From Halanaerobium salsuginis (GTDB taxonomy: Bacteria > Bacillota > Halanaerobiia > Halanaerobiales > Halanaerobiaceae): 64,000 nucleotides of DNA. Of the stretch, positions 53,078 to 61,658 are shown one piece after another. The position numbers were made by a program, and so were the translations under genes. Location: the NCBI RefSeq assembly GCF_900114545.1, contig NZ_FOTI01000006.1:1-64000 (forward strand), written 5' to 3'. Below the pieces are notes generated by a model, which saw nothing but the letters and a program-made list of their open reading frames with translations, had not been told where the DNA came from and searched no databases. Position 1 is the stretch's first letter, and each line of letters opens with the position of its first letter.

Positions 53078-53229
53078 TTTAATCTATCCTTTATTTACTT
53101 TTCGGATGTGAGAGGACGGGTAAATAATCATCCTTTTCTAATACTAACATATAACAGAATAATATAAAAGCCTAAATTTAATTGTTTAAATTAAAGCGAT
53201 ATGTTAAAATTATTATTGGAGTTGAGTTT

Positions 53230-53679
53230 ATGCAGATGATGGTCTTTACAATTTTATTATTGGGATTTGATCAGTTAATTAAATTCTGGATTAGAAATAA
53301 CTTAGCTGAGTTTGAGCATTTAAAATTTGGAGTAGATTTTGTCTATTTAACTTTTATTAAGAATAGAGGAGCTGCTTTTGGAATTTTGAGTGGTCAGCGT
53401 TATTTATTTATTTTTCTTAGTATTTTACTGTTGATATTACTTAGTTTTTTTTACTATAAAAATCTGCAAGCTGATTTAATAGGATCATTAGCACTAAGTT
53501 TTATCTTAGCTGGTGGATTATCCAATTTAATAGATCGATTTTGGCTGCATTATGTGGTTGATTTTTTAGCTTTTAATTTGTTCAGCTTTTCTAATCTTCC
53601 TGTTATTAATCTAGCTGATATACTTATTTGTATAGGTAGTTTATTACTAATTTATAGAGCTTTTCTGCTTGAAAATTGA
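53230..53679 (+). CDS. lspA: Lipoprotein signal peptidase (signal peptidase II)
   Basis: Aspartic protease of 149 residues with four membrane spans that cleaves prolipoprotein signal peptides after lipidation. Catalytic aspartates are D111 in YVVDFLAFN and D130 in INLADI; NRGAAFG and GGLSNLIDR are also conserved. ATG 53230 has GGAG nine bases upstream; a longer frame from 53182 lacks a ribosome site. A downstream Lnt homologue in the window is catalytically dead-looking. Confidence 0.95.
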   Translation: MQMMVFTILLLGFDQLIKFWIRNNLAEFEHLKFGVDFVYLTFIKNRGAAFGILSGQRYLFIFLSILLLILLSFFYYKNLQADLIGSLALSFILAGGLSNLIDRFWLHYVVDFLAFNLFSFSNLPVINLADILICIGSLLLIYRAFLLEN

Positions 53680-54664: not shown

Positions 54665-55867
54665 TTGTATAATTCTATAAAATTAACAGACAAAGTTCAC
54701 TGGGTAGGAGTAAACGACAAAGAAACAGATCTTTTCGAATCCCTCTGGCCTTTACCAGAAGGTATTGCATATAATTCTTATATTATTAATGATGATAAGG
54801 TAGCTTTAATTGATACAGTGAAAATAAACTATACTGATACTTATTTAGAAAAAGTTAGAGATGTGATTGGAGATAAAAAAGTTGATTATTTAATTATTAA
54901 TCATATGGAACCTGATCATTCTGGTTCAATCAAATCTGTATTGGAAGCATATCCTGAAATGAAGATTATTGGTAATGCTAAAACAATGAATTTTCTGGAA
55001 GGCTTTTATGGAATTACTGAAGGAACTCAGGTAATTAAAGATGGTGATGAGCTTGATTTAGGATCTCGTAAGCTGAAATTCTTTATAACTCCAATGGTTC
55101 ACTGGCCAGAAACAATGATGACCTATGATCAAAAAGATAAAATCTTATTTGCTGGTGATGTTTTTGGGGGCTTTGGATCTTTGAATGGATTCTTATTTGA
55201 TGATGAAGTTAACATTGATCATTATGAGGATGAAATTAGGCGTTATTTCTCCAATATCATTGGTAAATATGGTCCTGTTGCTCATCGGACAATCAGCAGA
55301 CTTGGTAAAGAAATTGAGCCCGAAATGATTGCTTCAACTCATGGATTAGTCTGGCGAGAAGATCCTGCGCATATTATTCAAGAATATGATAAATGGAGTC
55401 AGCAGGAAACTGAAGAAGGAGTTGTAGTAGTTTATGGTTCAATGTATGGTAATACTAAAGTTATGGCAGAAGCTGTGGCCAGATCTCTATCTGAAAATGG
55501 AATAGAGCAAATTAGGCTATTTGATGTTTCAAGAAAGCATCCTTCTTTTATTATTAATGATATTTGGAAATATAATGGTATTGTTCTGGGAAGTTGTACT
55601 TATAATACTGAAATATTCCCTCCAATGGATTACCTGCTTAAAGCTCTAGAAAGTAGGAATATTAAAAATAGAGTACTCGGTATTTTTGGATCTTATAGTT
55701 GGAGTGGTGGTGCTCTAGACCGTCTCAAAGAATTTAAGGAAAATGTTAACTGCCAGTTAGTTGACCCTGTAATTGAATCACAGCATGCTCCTTCAAGCGA
55801 AATTCTTGAAAAATGCTATGAAATTGGCAAAAATGTAGCTTCAGCAGTTAAAGAAAATAATGAGTAA
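54665..55867 (+). CDS. fprA: Flavodiiron protein (FprA-type A flavoprotein)
   Basis: Cytosolic oxygen or nitric oxide reductase of 400 residues. Metallo-beta-lactamase-like domain (1-250) with diiron ligands H80, E82, D84, H85 (NHMEPDHSGS), H in MVHWPETM, D in FAGDVFGGFG and H in ASTHGLVW. Flavodoxin domain (about 255-400) with FMN loop YGSMYGNTK. No rubredoxin domain is attached. In anaerobes it removes oxygen. TTG start with AAGGAGGAG upstream. Ends with a hairpin terminator. Confidence 0.95.
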   Translation: MYNSIKLTDKVHWVGVNDKETDLFESLWPLPEGIAYNSYIINDDKVALIDTVKINYTDTYLEKVRDVIGDKKVDYLIINHMEPDHSGSIKSVLEAYPEMKIIGNAKTMNFLEGFYGITEGTQVIKDGDELDLGSRKLKFFITPMVHWPETMMTYDQKDKILFAGDVFGGFGSLNGFLFDDEVNIDHYEDEIRRYFSNIIGKYGPVAHRTISRLGKEIEPEMIASTHGLVWREDPAHIIQEYDKWSQQETEEGVVVVYGSMYGNTKVMAEAVARSLSENGIEQIRLFDVSRKHPSFIINDIWKYNGIVLGSCTYNTEIFPPMDYLLKALESRNIKNRVLGIFGSYSWSGGALDRLKEFKENVNCQLVDPVIESQHAPSSEILEKCYEIGKNVASAVKENNE

Positions 55868-55963: not shown

Positions 55964-56145
55964 ATCTATTAAATATTCAAAAAATTAAAGGAATTTAAAT
56001 AACTTTTGTAGAAGTATTAATTTACAGAACAATTCTTCTGTCAGCTAATAAAATTTTATTGACTAGTTTACGTTAATGAAAATTATTGGGATTTTTACTG
56101 ACAGCCAGAGGATAAAAACAATAAAATGAAAGGTTGGTGGAAAAA

Positions 56146-58200
56146 ATGAGTGAAATTGCCAGTAAAGATATTAGGAATTTTTGCTTTGTATCACATGGAG
56201 GTGCGGGTAAATCAACATTAACTGAAATGCTGCTTTATAATGCTGGAGTAATTGAGCAGCCAGGTAGTGTTGATAAAGGAAGTTTGCAATCTGATTATCG
56301 ACCTGTTGAAAAAGAACATAAGCATTCAGTTCACAATAGTTATTTTAATTTTGAGTGGCATAATAAATTATTTCATTTTATTGATACACCTGGTTATGCT
56401 GATTTTAGAAGTGAGGTTGTTAGTGCTTTAAAAATGGTGGAAAGCGCAGTTTTGTTAATTGATGCTGCAGCTGGAATTGAAGTTAATACAGGCTTTGTCT
56501 GGAAATTGGCAGATCAAAATGATTTAGCAAAAGCTGTTTTTATTAATAAGATTGATAAAGAAGATGCAAATTTTGATCAAGTAGTAGAAGATCTCCGAAG
56601 TACTTATGATGATAGTTTTGCTATTGTAACTATTCCCTATTATGAAGCAGGAGAGTTTATTGGAATAATTGATTTGCTTGATGAAAAATTATATAAAAGT
56701 GAGTCAGGTAAGCAAAAATCATATCCTATTCCGGAATCTGAGCAAGAAAGAGTAGCTGATTATGTTTTAAAATTAACTGAAGAAATTGTTGAATTAAAAG
56801 AAGATTTAATGCTCAAATATCTGGAAGGTGAAGAAATAACAATTAAGGAATTAACTAGAGCTTTTGAAGAAGAAGTTGCAGGAGAAGAACTAGTTCCTGT
56901 TTTCGCTGGCTCAGCTACTGAAAACTGTGGAGTAGCTAAGTTTCTGGATGATTTAAGTAAAATACTGCCTTCAGCTGCTGAAGCTCAATTAACTGAATTA
57001 AGTGATTCAGATCAGGCACCACTTCCAAATGCAGATAGCTCTTTTAGTGCTCAGGTATGTAAAACAATTGTAGATCCTTATATAGGTAAATTATCTATTT
57101 TTAGGGTTTTTTCCGGAAATGTAGAACGAGATCAAGAAGTTGAAATAGCCAATTCAGGTCAAAAAATTAAAATCGGCAAACTTTATAAGCTGGCAGGTTC
57201 AAATCAGAATAATGTTGATCAATTGAGTGCTGGAGAGATTGGTGCTGTTGCTAAAATTGATGCTTTAGAAACTTCCTCCACTATGCGTGAACCAGAAACA
57301 AAAGTTATTTACCGGCCGCTTATTTTTCCAGCCCCAATGTATAGCCGGGCAGCTTATCCTGCTGCTGGAATAGATGAAGAAAAAATGGCTGCTGCTTTGC
57401 AGCGCTATAGTGATTCAGATCCAACCTTTAAAGTTGAATTTAATAAGATAACTAAAGAATTAACTTTAACTGGCATGGGGACAATACATTTTATTTTGAT
57501 TAAAGAGGAGTGTAAGCGTAAGTATGAAATAGATTTTGAATTAAGAGAACCTAAAGTAGCCTATCGTGAAACAATTCAGGGTAAGGCAAATGTAGAAGAA
57601 AAATATAAAAAACAGTCTGGTGGTCGGGGGCAGTATGGTCATGTTTTAATGAAAATGGAACCCCTTAGCCGCGGCAAAGGTTTTGAATTTGAAGAAGAAA
57701 TTTTTGGTGGAGCAATTCCAAATCAATATATACCAGCTGTAGAAAAAGGTATTGTTGAAGCTAAAGGAGAAGGTGTCCTGGCTGGCTATCCGGTTGTTGA
57801 TTTTAAAGTTATTCTTTATGATGGTTCTTATCATGATGTTGATTCATCAGAAATGGCCTTTAAAATTGCAGCTTCAAAGGCATTTCGTAAAGGACTTGAG
57901 TTAGCTCATCCAGTCTTATTAGAGCCCGTTATGAAAGTGAGAGTAACAGTTCCCCAGGAATTTATGGGAGATATTATGGGAGATTTTAATTCCCGGCGGG
58001 GCAGGATACAGGGCATGGATCCTCAAGATGGGGTTCAGATAATTAAGGCAGAAGTACCACAGGCAGAAATGTTTAATTATGCAGTTGAATTAAAATCAAT
58101 TACAGGTGGTTATGGATCTTTTACTATGAAGTTTTCTCATTATGATAAAGTACCAGCAGAAATTAGTGAGAAAATAATTAGTCTAGCTCAAGTTGTTTGA
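56146..58200 (+). CDS. Elongation factor G-like GTPase (EF-G2 type)
   Basis: A 684-residue translational GTPase with the five-domain plan of EF-G. G1 is SHGGAGKST instead of the AHIDAGKTT of canonical EF-G, G3 is DTPGYADF, G4 NKID. Domain IV contains GGRGQYGHV and domain V closes with ITGGYGSFTMKFSHY. The divergent P-loop and stand-alone position (not with rpsL-rpsG-tuf) fit the EF-G-like paralogue group; its role may be in recycling or under stress. ATG 56146 is chosen; GGTTGGTGG precedes it. Confidence 0.88.
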   Translation: MSEIASKDIRNFCFVSHGGAGKSTLTEMLLYNAGVIEQPGSVDKGSLQSDYRPVEKEHKHSVHNSYFNFEWHNKLFHFIDTPGYADFRSEVVSALKMVESAVLLIDAAAGIEVNTGFVWKLADQNDLAKAVFINKIDKEDANFDQVVEDLRSTYDDSFAIVTIPYYEAGEFIGIIDLLDEKLYKSESGKQKSYPIPESEQERVADYVLKLTEEIVELKEDLMLKYLEGEEITIKELTRAFEEEVAGEELVPVFAGSATENCGVAKFLDDLSKILPSAAEAQLTELSDSDQAPLPNADSSFSAQVCKTIVDPYIGKLSIFRVFSGNVERDQEVEIANSGQKIKIGKLYKLAGSNQNNVDQLSAGEIGAVAKIDALETSSTMREPETKVIYRPLIFPAPMYSRAAYPAAGIDEEKMAAALQRYSDSDPTFKVEFNKITKELTLTGMGTIHFILIKEECKRKYEIDFELREPKVAYRETIQGKANVEEKYKKQSGGRGQYGHVLMKMEPLSRGKGFEFEEEIFGGAIPNQYIPAVEKGIVEAKGEGVLAGYPVVDFKVILYDGSYHDVDSSEMAFKIAASKAFRKGLELAHPVLLEPVMKVRVTVPQEFMGDIMGDFNSRRGRIQGMDPQDGVQIIKAEVPQAEMFNYAVELKSITGGYGSFTMKFSHYDKVPAEISEKIISLAQVV

Positions 58201-58233
58201 TTTAACAGAGGTATTAATAAAAATAAATATTTT

Positions 58234-58262
58234 AAAAAGACCAGCACTATGCTGGTCTTTTT
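58234..58262 (+). terminator. Terminator after EF-G-like gene
   Basis: AAAAAGACCAGC (58234-58245) pairs perfectly with GCTGGTCTTTTT (58251-58262), loop ACTATG-like, then more T. Its position shows that the following gene starts downstream of it. Confidence 0.93.
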
Positions 58263-58299
58263 GCTTTTAGTATTGTATAATGGCGGTGGAGGAATGAAT

Positions 58300-59808
58300 A
58301 TGGAATTTATTTTGATTATTATAGCTTCATTATTATTAAGTTTACCTCTTTATTTGCCTGGTCTATTTTTTGCAAGTTGGTTTGCATTTTTGCCTATTTA
58401 TTTTTTAAGCAGGAGGCTTGACTTTAGACATGGGTTAATTAGTATTTTTATAGTTGGTTTACTTAATGCTGCGCTTAGCTTTTATTGGTTGTATCAACCT
58501 CTTAAAAATCAACTTTCTATGCCTTTTTCCTTTAATTTTTTATTATTATTAATTTATTTTATTATTTCAGCTTTATTTATTAGCATCTGGTTTATAGTTA
58601 ATAAATTCTTACAGCCAAAAGCTTCTTATAGCCCTTTAATAGCTGCTTTAAGCTGGAGCTGTCTTGAATATTTACGTTTTAATTTTTTAGACTTAAATCC
58701 TTTTGCTTATCTTGGTTATACTCAAACTAATTTTACTTATTTAATGAAATTTGCTTCTTTTGGAGGAATGTTTTTAGTATCTTTTTTAACAGTTTTAATT
58801 GGTGGATATTTAGTAAAGATATTTATTAATCCTTCTTTTAAGAGAGCTGTACCTTTATTATTGATTTTATTTTTCATTTTTACATTTCCTCATTTTTATT
58901 ATGCAGCTGCTCCAGCTGCTAAAGCTGGTCCAGAAATTGATCTTTTAATAAATAATGATTCAGCAAATTTTATTAATAGACAAATTAATGATAGATTTAA
59001 TCTATTAGATGAGGAAATAACCACATTAGCTAAGTTAATTAATTCCAGTAATAGCAAATATTTATTTACAGCGGCTAATTCTCTGCATTTTGATCTACCC
59101 AGGAATGGATATTATAGAACGCAATTTTTAGATAAAATAACTAAATCACAACAGGATACTTATCTTCAATTAGGAGTTAATAGCTATAGAAAAGCTGGTT
59201 TTAAAGAACGGAATTCTTTTTCATTATTATTAGATCCAGATTTAGAAGTTAAATATAGGCTGCCAAAAAACAATAATATTTTAGCTGGATTACAAATTTT
59301 TGCTAAAAAACATCTGCAAAAAATATTAGCTAATCAGATTGACTTTAAAATAAATCCAGTCAGCAGTCAATTTATTGAATTACCAGATTTCAGTTATTTA
59401 AATTTAATCACAGATGAGATTTTTACGCCTCTAGCTGTTAGTAGAGTAAATCTAGATAAAAATTATAATTTGCTAATTTATACAGCTGACAACAGTGATT
59501 TTAGGGGGGTAGTTTACAATAACCTGAGCTGGTCTGCAGCAGTCATGAGAGCGGCTGAAAGCAGAATATCTGTTGTTGCAGCAGTTAGTTCTGGTTATAG
59601 TGGTTATATTAATTTTGGCGCTAAGTCAGTAAAGAAGGTAAGACTGGCCCGGGGATTAATTTCAGTTAAACCTGCTTTAATAAATTATCAGACCTATTAT
59701 GAAAAACAGCCTGATCGAGTTATTAATTTCTTATTAGTTATGCTGGCAGTAATATTTATTTTAAAATTATTATTTATTATAGCAGCAAAAAGAGACAGCA
59801 GAAATTAA
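58300..59808 (+). CDS. Degenerate apolipoprotein N-acyltransferase (Lnt) homologue
   Basis: About 502 residues: six or so N-terminal membrane spans (to about 200), an extracytoplasmic nitrilase-like domain (about 212-465), and a last span near 475-492, the layout of Lnt. AVMRAAESRISVVAAVSSGYSG matches the Lnt run before the C-terminal span. Catalytic residues are gone: the glutamate position reads A258 (FTAANS), the lysine loop KYRLPKNN lacks its pattern, and the cysteine position is T371 (NLITDEIF for LICYE-F). It may be a scaffold or have another role. Start ATG 58300 has GGTGGAGG seven bases before. Stops overlap with rqcH. Confidence 0.8.
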   Translation: MEFILIIIASLLLSLPLYLPGLFFASWFAFLPIYFLSRRLDFRHGLISIFIVGLLNAALSFYWLYQPLKNQLSMPFSFNFLLLLIYFIISALFISIWFIVNKFLQPKASYSPLIAALSWSCLEYLRFNFLDLNPFAYLGYTQTNFTYLMKFASFGGMFLVSFLTVLIGGYLVKIFINPSFKRAVPLLLILFFIFTFPHFYYAAAPAAKAGPEIDLLINNDSANFINRQINDRFNLLDEEITTLAKLINSSNSKYLFTAANSLHFDLPRNGYYRTQFLDKITKSQQDTYLQLGVNSYRKAGFKERNSFSLLLDPDLEVKYRLPKNNNILAGLQIFAKKHLQKILANQIDFKINPVSSQFIELPDFSYLNLITDEIFTPLAVSRVNLDKNYNLLIYTADNSDFRGVVYNNLSWSAAVMRAAESRISVVAAVSSGYSGYINFGAKSVKKVRLARGLISVKPALINYQTYYEKQPDRVINFLLVMLAVIFILKLLFIIAAKRDSRN

Positions 59809-59829
59809 TCTGCTGTCATTTTTTTTATT
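59794..59829. terminator. Shared bidirectional terminator inside two convergent stops
   Basis: GACAGCAGA (59794-59802) pairs with TCTGCTGTC (59809-59817); T runs lie at 59819-59826 on the plus side and a T-rich stretch on the minus side. The loop AATTAA contains both stop codons, TAA 59806-59808 (plus) and TTA 59805-59807 (minus). Confidence 0.88.
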
Positions 59830-61553
59830 ACTTCTAGATCTGGATCAATATAAATTGTCTGATAATTATCATAATAGACAAGACCAGGTTTTGCTCCTTT
59901 AGGTTTATTGACATTTTCTACCTGGGTATAATCTATTGGAACATTTTTTGATTGTCGTGCCTTACTGTAGTATGCAGCCAGAACAGCAGCTTCATTTATT
60001 GTTTGTTCAGGAACATCTTTAGCTGTATCACGCTTAATTATCACATGTGAGCCAGCTATTGTTTTGGTATGCAGCCAGAGATCACCTTGATTAGCAATTT
60101 TTTTAGTTAATTGATCATTTTGACGATTATTTCTACCAACTAAAATTTGGTAACCATCGCTAGAAATAAATTTGCGTGGTTTTAAACGAGCTGTTTGCTT
60201 TTTGCGATTTTTTTTCTGCTGTTTTTTAATATATCCTTCATCTTTCAGCTCATCTTTTATTTCATCAAGATCATTTAAAGTTTCAGCCTGTTCGATATTT
60301 AAACTAACCTGGTTTAAATATTTTTCTTCATGTCTTAATTTAGCAATTTCTCTTTTTAAATGTTTCACACTTTTTTTAAGCTTATTATATTTTTTGAAAT
60401 ATTTTTGAGCATTTTCAGAGGCAGTTAAATCTGGTCTTAGTTTGATTTTTAGTTTAGACTGGTCAGAAGAATAATAATCAGTAACTTCAACTTCATTACT
60501 ACCTTTTTTAATTTGATAAATATTAGCAGTAATTAATTCACCGTATTTTTTATATTTTTCAGCATTTTTACTGTCCGCTAATTGTTGCTTTAACTTTTCC
60601 TGTTTTTTAATGGTTTTTTGCAGATAATTATTAACTACTTTGTTTACTTCTCTAATTGAATGATTTAATTTTTTGTTTTTTAAGAAGTTCTTATAATAGT
60701 AGTCCATCATTTCATCAAAATCAGTAAATCTTTTGCTTTCGGTAACTTTCCTATAATTTAAAGGGAAAGCTGAAATATAATCTAATTTATGATCTGTTAA
60801 ACCAATTATAGCTTGATATTCTTGCTGTTTAATTAAAGTAGTTAAATTCAAGAAAGATTTAGCTAAACTTTCTTTATCCGCCCTAGATAAATCTTGATAA
60901 TTTAAGCCACTTTCTATACCAGCACGATGAACAATCTCTCGAGCTGAATAAGGACCGATACCTCTGAAATTAAACATTACAGCTCTAAATGATGCCTGAT
61001 TAAAGTCGGCTGGAATAGCTGTTAAGAAATCAAATTTATTTTGAGGAACTAAAGGATTTATTTTTTGCTGACCGGGAGGATAATGATAATTAACTCCAGG
61101 ATATAGTTCTCTTTCACTACTCTGTTTATTGGTAATTCTTTTCATAGCATCTAAAACTATTTCTTTATCATCAAGTAAAATAACATTACTATATTTACCC
61201 ATTAATTCTGCAATTAATTTATATTCTTTTCCTCTTTTTTCTATATTAATTTCAATTATTCTTTCAAATTCAGGTTGAATTATTTTTGTGATATAAGAAT
61301 TTTTAAGATATTTTCTTAACAGCATACAAAAGTCAGGGGGATAAGCAGGAAATTCGTAATCTAAATTAGTTAGATTGATTCTCGCCCCTTCTGCATCAGT
61401 AGAAATTAATAATTGCAGATTTTTATTTTGCTGTCTTAATCTGACAATCAACTGTTTTTGTTCAATTTGATACACTTTTTCTATTCTTGCTCCAATAATT
61501 TTTGCTTGTAGATTATCTTTAAGGGCAGATAGTAAGATCCCATCAAAAGCCAT
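59805..61553 (-). CDS. rqcH: Ribosome quality control protein RqcH (NEMF/NFACT family)
   Basis: A 582-residue protein that binds obstructed 50S subunits and recruits tRNA-Ala to add C-terminal alanine tails. NFACT-N domain (1-200; start MAFDGILLSALKDNL), helix-hairpin-helix region, long coiled coil (about 290-440), NFACT-R domain (about 455-565; SSDGYQILVGRNNRQND, DLWLHTKTIAGSHVII). ATG 61553 is used: TTGGAG is about nine bases upstream, while the GTG at 61562 overlaps it. Older annotations call it fibronectin-binding protein A. YlmH, a second RQC factor, is encoded in this window. Confidence 0.93.
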   Translation of the reverse strand: MAFDGILLSALKDNLQAKIIGARIEKVYQIEQKQLIVRLRQQNKNLQLLISTDAEGARINLTNLDYEFPAYPPDFCMLLRKYLKNSYITKIIQPEFERIIEINIEKRGKEYKLIAELMGKYSNVILLDDKEIVLDAMKRITNKQSSERELYPGVNYHYPPGQQKINPLVPQNKFDFLTAIPADFNQASFRAVMFNFRGIGPYSAREIVHRAGIESGLNYQDLSRADKESLAKSFLNLTTLIKQQEYQAIIGLTDHKLDYISAFPLNYRKVTESKRFTDFDEMMDYYYKNFLKNKKLNHSIREVNKVVNNYLQKTIKKQEKLKQQLADSKNAEKYKKYGELITANIYQIKKGSNEVEVTDYYSSDQSKLKIKLRPDLTASENAQKYFKKYNKLKKSVKHLKREIAKLRHEEKYLNQVSLNIEQAETLNDLDEIKDELKDEGYIKKQQKKNRKKQTARLKPRKFISSDGYQILVGRNNRQNDQLTKKIANQGDLWLHTKTIAGSHVIIKRDTAKDVPEQTINEAAVLAAYYSKARQSKNVPIDYTQVENVNKPKGAKPGLVYYDNYQTIYIDPDLEVIKKMTAD

Positions 61554-61658
61554 TTTTATCACTCCAATTTAGCTTTCTAAATATTATTTTAGTTTAACTT
61601 TAGTTTACTTTAGTATAAAAGAAAGTTTGCTGTGAGTCAATCATGATCTTTAATTCCC

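Follow-up and report, generated by a model that had tools for sequence, protein, structure and literature searches.

The N-acyltransferase Lnt of Escherichia coli (b0657; TIGR00546, PF20154 plus a nitrilase-like domain) is built from an eight-helix membrane domain and a nitrilase-like domain and carries an RAxE segment. Replacement of its C387 by alanine abolishes activity and replacement by serine leaves low activity (PMC10313180), and W237 and E343, which are essential, sit with W415 where the substrate cavity narrows (PMC6971011). Second Lnt homologues have been described in other bacteria. Mycobacterium bovis BCG_2279c carries a C387S substitution, cannot replace the working Lnt and gave no N-acylation of the lipoproteins tested, and Lnt2 of Streptomyces scabies, which has been contrasted with BCG_2279c as missing no essential residue, plays a subsidiary role (PMC3850990). 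Ppm2 of corynebacteria and mycobacteria is an Lnt-family membrane protein reported to bind Ppm1 (PMC3460810). In Halanaerobiales, the presence of Lnt homologues and LolA has been taken to indicate that lipoproteins follow a Lol-type route (PMC5007114).

The window analyzed here is a 64,000-nucleotide stretch of DNA from Halanaerobium salsuginis. Its forward strand carries, at 58300..59808, a gene for an apparently catalytically dead Lnt homologue of 502 amino acids counted from the ATG at 58300, hereafter the degenerate Lnt. The protein matches PF20154 (LNT_N; E 2.6e-19, Pfam) and scores 81.8 bits against the NCBIfam lnt equivalog TIGR00546, below its cut-off of 132.9; the Pfam CN_hydrolase model finds no match in it but does match the paralogue of the same genome. 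A profile of the degenerate proteins retrieved Lnt chains from the PDB at E values of about 1e-6, with every match below 0.01 being an Lnt, and profile-profile alignment with intact Lnts (hhalign) gave an E value of 1.5e-86 over 492 columns, so the homology is full-length and collinear. The RAAE segment, likened to Lnt in the original prediction, does correspond to R432, A433 and E435. As judged from these comparisons, 58300-59808 (+) is confirmed as encoding a genuine Lnt homologue that shares with the E. coli enzyme the eight-helix membrane domain, the nitrilase-like domain and the RAxE segment. A structure model built from seven sequences was discarded for its low mean pLDDT of 41.7, and a scan of the genome contigs with the single window protein as query gave no match.

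The longest open reading frame spans 58249-59808 (519 amino acids). Translation likely starts at 58294 or 58300: a hairpin resembling a terminator at 58233..58263 (+), in the interval between an upstream EF-G-like gene and the degenerate lnt, runs into the longer reading, and the ATG at 58294 has an SD-like GGTGGAGG (58285..58292, +) in front of it. A start of the form ME(F/L) is common to the orthologues. A TATAAT at 58276-58281 was considered as a -10-like promoter element and dropped, being too near the start of the gene. At the other end, a bidirectional terminator-like hairpin (59794..59817, no strand assigned) occupies the interval shared with the convergent rqcH-like gene.

To map residues, the protein was aligned with 33 intact Lnts from its own order and compared, as a profile, with solved Lnt structures. 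The nucleophile position C387 is occupied by Thr388 of the 519-residue frame, which is Thr371 when counted from 58300 (codon 59410..59412, +), exactly as had been proposed. Catalytic E267 is replaced by alanine, also as proposed, but the residue is Ala259 counted from 58300 (Ala276 of the longer frame; codon 59074..59076, +) and the earlier number, 258, was off by one. The lysine loop was likewise correctly described as altered, but the K335 position itself is still a lysine (Lys340; codon 59266..59268, +), so the triad lysine has not been lost. Essential E343 has become Leu348 (codon 59290..59292, +), W237 has become Asp248 (58990..58992, +) and W415 has become Asp417 (59497..59499, +).

The degenerate form runs through the genus. 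Genus counts refer to ten Halanaerobium genomes with a completeness of 90% or more, with species including H. saccharolyticum, H. polyolivorans, H. kushneri, H. congolense and H. praevalens. At the C387 position the ten degenerate proteins carry alanine (five), serine (four) or threonine (one), and E343, W237 and W415 are each gone in all ten, so that relatives do share the loss of catalytic residues, a point that the original prediction had put forward for checking. Nor do an intact glutamate, lysine and cysteine lie elsewhere in the sequence: nine of the ten orthologues contain no cysteine at all, and the single cysteine of the window protein sits in a membrane helix. Taken together, the substitutions support a loss of N-acyltransferase catalysis in the degenerate Lnt. 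An enzyme that still acylates with another nucleophile or chemistry (serine or threonine for cysteine, or water) could be argued from the retention of E389 (9/10), E267 (7/10, otherwise glutamine or alanine, the latter in the window protein) and K335 (6/10, with lysine or glutamine across the clade), and from the low activity of E. coli C387S. We regard this as highly improbable, given alanine at the nucleophile position in half of the proteins, the complete loss of E343, W237 and W415, the near absence of cysteine and the lack of any invariant serine or threonine next to the old nucleophile site among the ten.

Two LNT_N proteins are present in the window's genome. The second (contig C59, 480 amino acids, locus L035:7095-8537, minus strand) retains W237, E267, K335, E343, P346, C387, E389 and W415; because it has all the catalytic residues, H. 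salsuginis very likely N-acylates its lipoproteins by the ordinary route, and the different acylation route once suggested for this organism is not needed. The catalytic gene is unlinked to the degenerate one, and its surroundings vary between species. In four genomes (G011, G012, G017 and G020) it lies directly 3' of a giant gene of the LptF/G family together with an LptA-like gene, and the giant gene is also near it in G019. The same pair occurs in family f7, where an lspA-family gene and lgt separate it from lnt. The giant protein has about 1070 residues (L048:4080-7277 in G011; also L054, L055, L049, L063, L069 and L072), and its Pfam LptF_LptG match is confined to the first 360 of them, leaving about 700 residues beyond without assignment; in Halanaerobium genomes that carry this gene there is a further LptF-like match, to a protein of ordinary length.

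Phylogenetic analysis placed the ten degenerate proteins in one clade (support 100/100), sister to the single intact Lnts of two other Halanaerobiaceae genera (G022, 100/100; G021, 97/95), and grouped the intact Halanaerobium Lnts with a different family of the order (100/99). AU tests rejected a duplication within the genus (p 4e-05) but not one within the family (p 0.18), so a horizontal gain of the catalytic copy stays unproven, and the catalytic Halanaerobium lnt is either a xenologue or an old paralogue. Genomic position identifies the native gene. Across the order, lnt is found in the arrangement EF-G-like, other genes, lnt, rqcH-like, remA-like and gmk-like, with lspA and lgt nearby. 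In the window, the EF-G-like GTPase gene (56134..58200, +) and the convergent RqcH/NEMF-like gene (59805..61562, -; named by inspection) are the conserved neighbors, lspA (signal peptidase II, family F6, named by sequence inspection; 53182..53679, +) lies upstream at a distance of 5 kb, and lgt is located some 8 kb downstream, outside the window (G000:C89:67779-68513). Since the degenerate lnt holds this order-wide site and the catalytic copy is located elsewhere in variable surroundings, it is the native gene that became the dead one. The lspA-lnt neighborhood also contains a gene for a flavodiiron-type protein (window 54665-55867, by inspection of the translation; family F8), found at this site in Halanaerobium as well as in the two sister genera examined.

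The degenerate gene is full-length with an intact frame in all ten Halanaerobium genomes, and a catalytic paralogue accompanies it in nine. The sister genera have one intact Lnt each at the same site. As the degenerate form is common to all ten genomes and the site is occupied by intact Lnts in the sister genera, the catalytic loss is old and not a recent decay. The exception among the ten is H. praevalens (G014; locus L037), in which the degenerate protein is the only Lnt homologue: its genome consists of one contig of 2,309,262 bp, a closed chromosome (PMC3156398), and searches of the whole genome with LNT_N, with CN_hydrolase and directly with proteins found no catalytic Lnt. This species retains lgt and has an lspA-family gene in the neighborhood of its degenerate lnt. 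Lit (PF07314) was found nowhere in the genus, H. praevalens included. A Pfam search for LolA gave no match; LolA homologues have been reported in Halanaerobiales (PMC5007114). From its gene content, H. praevalens would need another acylation route or would make diacylated lipoproteins. With lgt present and neither a catalytic Lnt nor Lit, its lipoproteins may be diacylated only.

The combination of a dead and a working copy in 9 of the 10 genomes invites the reading that the degenerate Lnt is an auxiliary subunit or allosteric partner through which the catalytic Lnt N-acylates more efficiently. Such a role has been proposed for S. scabies Lnt2, whose loss leaves N-acylation at only a marginal level (PMC3850990). 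Lnt2 is similarly a second Lnt homologue but, unlike the degenerate Lnt, has its essential residues. The two Halanaerobium genes are unlinked, the neighborhood of the catalytic gene changes between species, and H. praevalens keeps the degenerate Lnt with no catalytic partner at all. That species shows that the degenerate Lnt does not need a catalytic enzyme and argues against a role solely as the partner of a working Lnt, and we consider the auxiliary role unlikely.

The degenerate Lnt is under purifying selection. Between near species its dN/dS is 0.13-0.22, compared with 0.10-0.21 for the catalytic copies, both being approximate values because most pairs have a dS close to 1 or higher. What differs is where the constraint falls. 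Identity among the degenerate proteins is 66% in the membrane domain versus 43% in the nitrilase domain, with the membrane domain higher in 45/45 pairs; among the catalytic copies of the same genomes the values are 51% versus 55%, with the membrane domain higher in only 5/36. The membrane domain is the more conserved in 2 of 28 pairs of family f3 and 2 of 15 of family f4, and family f7 Lnts show the direction of the degenerate proteins at smaller size (59% versus 52%); in all of these counts the pairs are not independent. Invariant columns follow the same pattern, numbering 65/201 in the membrane domain of the degenerate proteins versus 35/199 in that of the catalytic copies (p 0.0008) and 34/254 versus 64/248 in the nitrilase domain (p 0.0005). 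Constraint in the degenerate Lnt has shifted away from the catalytic domain and onto the membrane domain.

These data bear directly on whether the gene is simply a functionless, decaying remnant of a displaced native Lnt. Its catalytic positions do drift between species (A/S/T, E/Q/A and K/Q), and its nitrilase domain evolves faster than that of the catalytic copies. Intact frames in every genome and a membrane domain more conserved than that of the working enzyme are hard to reconcile with decay, which is rejected by the dN/dS values and which we hold to be very improbable. Repurposing and retention as a lipoprotein or membrane factor, as the original prediction suggested, is the best reading of a genus-wide loss of this kind.

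The cytoplasmic loops of the membrane domain are also more invariant in the degenerate proteins (11/29 columns versus 2/27 in the catalytic copies, p 0.01), a comparison based on few columns and on loop limits drawn post hoc from the topology of E. coli Lnt rather than computed. The motif NKFLQP, at the cytoplasmic end of TM4 (58600..58617, +), is invariant in all ten. It is partly present in the intact Lnts of the sister genera, as NNFMQS and HNFMQP, and is not wholly new; part of the inherited constraint predates the catalytic loss. Such loops could allow the degenerate Lnt to scaffold a cytosolic enzyme or a peripheral one, as Ppm2 scaffolds Ppm1 in mycobacteria, where the reported interaction (PMC3460810) supplies a precedent for scaffolding, Ppm2 itself being a working Lnt, unlike the degenerate protein. 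This account is improbable in our judgment: beyond the limits of the loop comparison and the partly older origin of the motif, no conserved neighboring gene points to a partner.

We lean towards the interpretation that the degenerate Lnt is the vertically inherited native Lnt of Halanaerobiaceae turned into a non-catalytic membrane protein that handles lipids or lipoproteins. N-acyltransferase chemistry would have been lost in the Halanaerobium ancestor, after or while a second catalytic lnt was present elsewhere, and the protein would have been retained since as a non-catalytic membrane protein. Its conserved eight-helix domain may still accept phospholipid or lipoprotein acyl chains and, in addition or alternatively, its conserved cytoplasmic loops may hold a partner. 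The protein would then serve as a scaffold that handles lipoproteins or lipids (an escort, selector or holdase before export to the outer membrane) rather than as an acyltransferase. That it binds rather than acylates is plausible. Binding at the old substrate site appears doubtful, because the substrate-contacting gate residues of the E. coli enzyme (W237, E343 and W415) have been lost. The membrane-biased conservation in family f7 and the presence of an NKFLQP-like loop before the catalytic loss count against the proposal. A broader possibility, which we put forward only tentatively, is that the Lnt fold acts as a non-enzymatic factor for handling lipoproteins or lipids, centered on the membrane domain and independent of N-acylation, so that H. 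praevalens, lacking an Lnt enzyme, would have kept the degenerate Lnt for sorting or export.

Compared with E. coli Lnt, the degenerate protein lacks the nucleophile cysteine, E343, W237 and W415, falls below the lnt cut-off, has no CN_hydrolase match and is under membrane-focused selection; with the intact Lnts of its own order it shares the native genomic site. It resembles BCG_2279c as a second homologue beside a working Lnt (H. praevalens, which has no intact Lnt, being the exception) in which the catalytic cysteine has been replaced. In BCG_2279c, however, C387 is the sole triad change, whereas the window protein also lacks E267, E343, W237 and W415; unlike the mycobacterial case, nine of the ten degenerate proteins have no cysteine and one species keeps the dead copy alone. 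Further Lnt-like proteins examined from the phylum (L076-L079, L081 and L083-L087) keep the glutamate, lysine and cysteine. Within this set, L083-L087, from other families of the phylum, form a divergent Lnt-like group with an ICYD motif and the glutamate and lysine kept; around E343 these proteins carry KDHPVAFAGE or a similar string, and at the W237 position they show no conservation. Viral contigs scanned for intact Lnts yielded none. No publication on the Halanaerobium protein was found in the open-access literature. A C387S paralogue was already known from mycobacteria; the Halanaerobium protein is a more extreme form and is new.

For H. praevalens, calling Lnt as present would on its own mislead, because the only Lnt gene there, which occupies the native site, encodes a dead enzyme. 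The salt-loving genus Halanaerobium offers a natural experiment on an outer-membrane bacterium with versus without N-acylation, and on the purpose of a retained Lnt scaffold.
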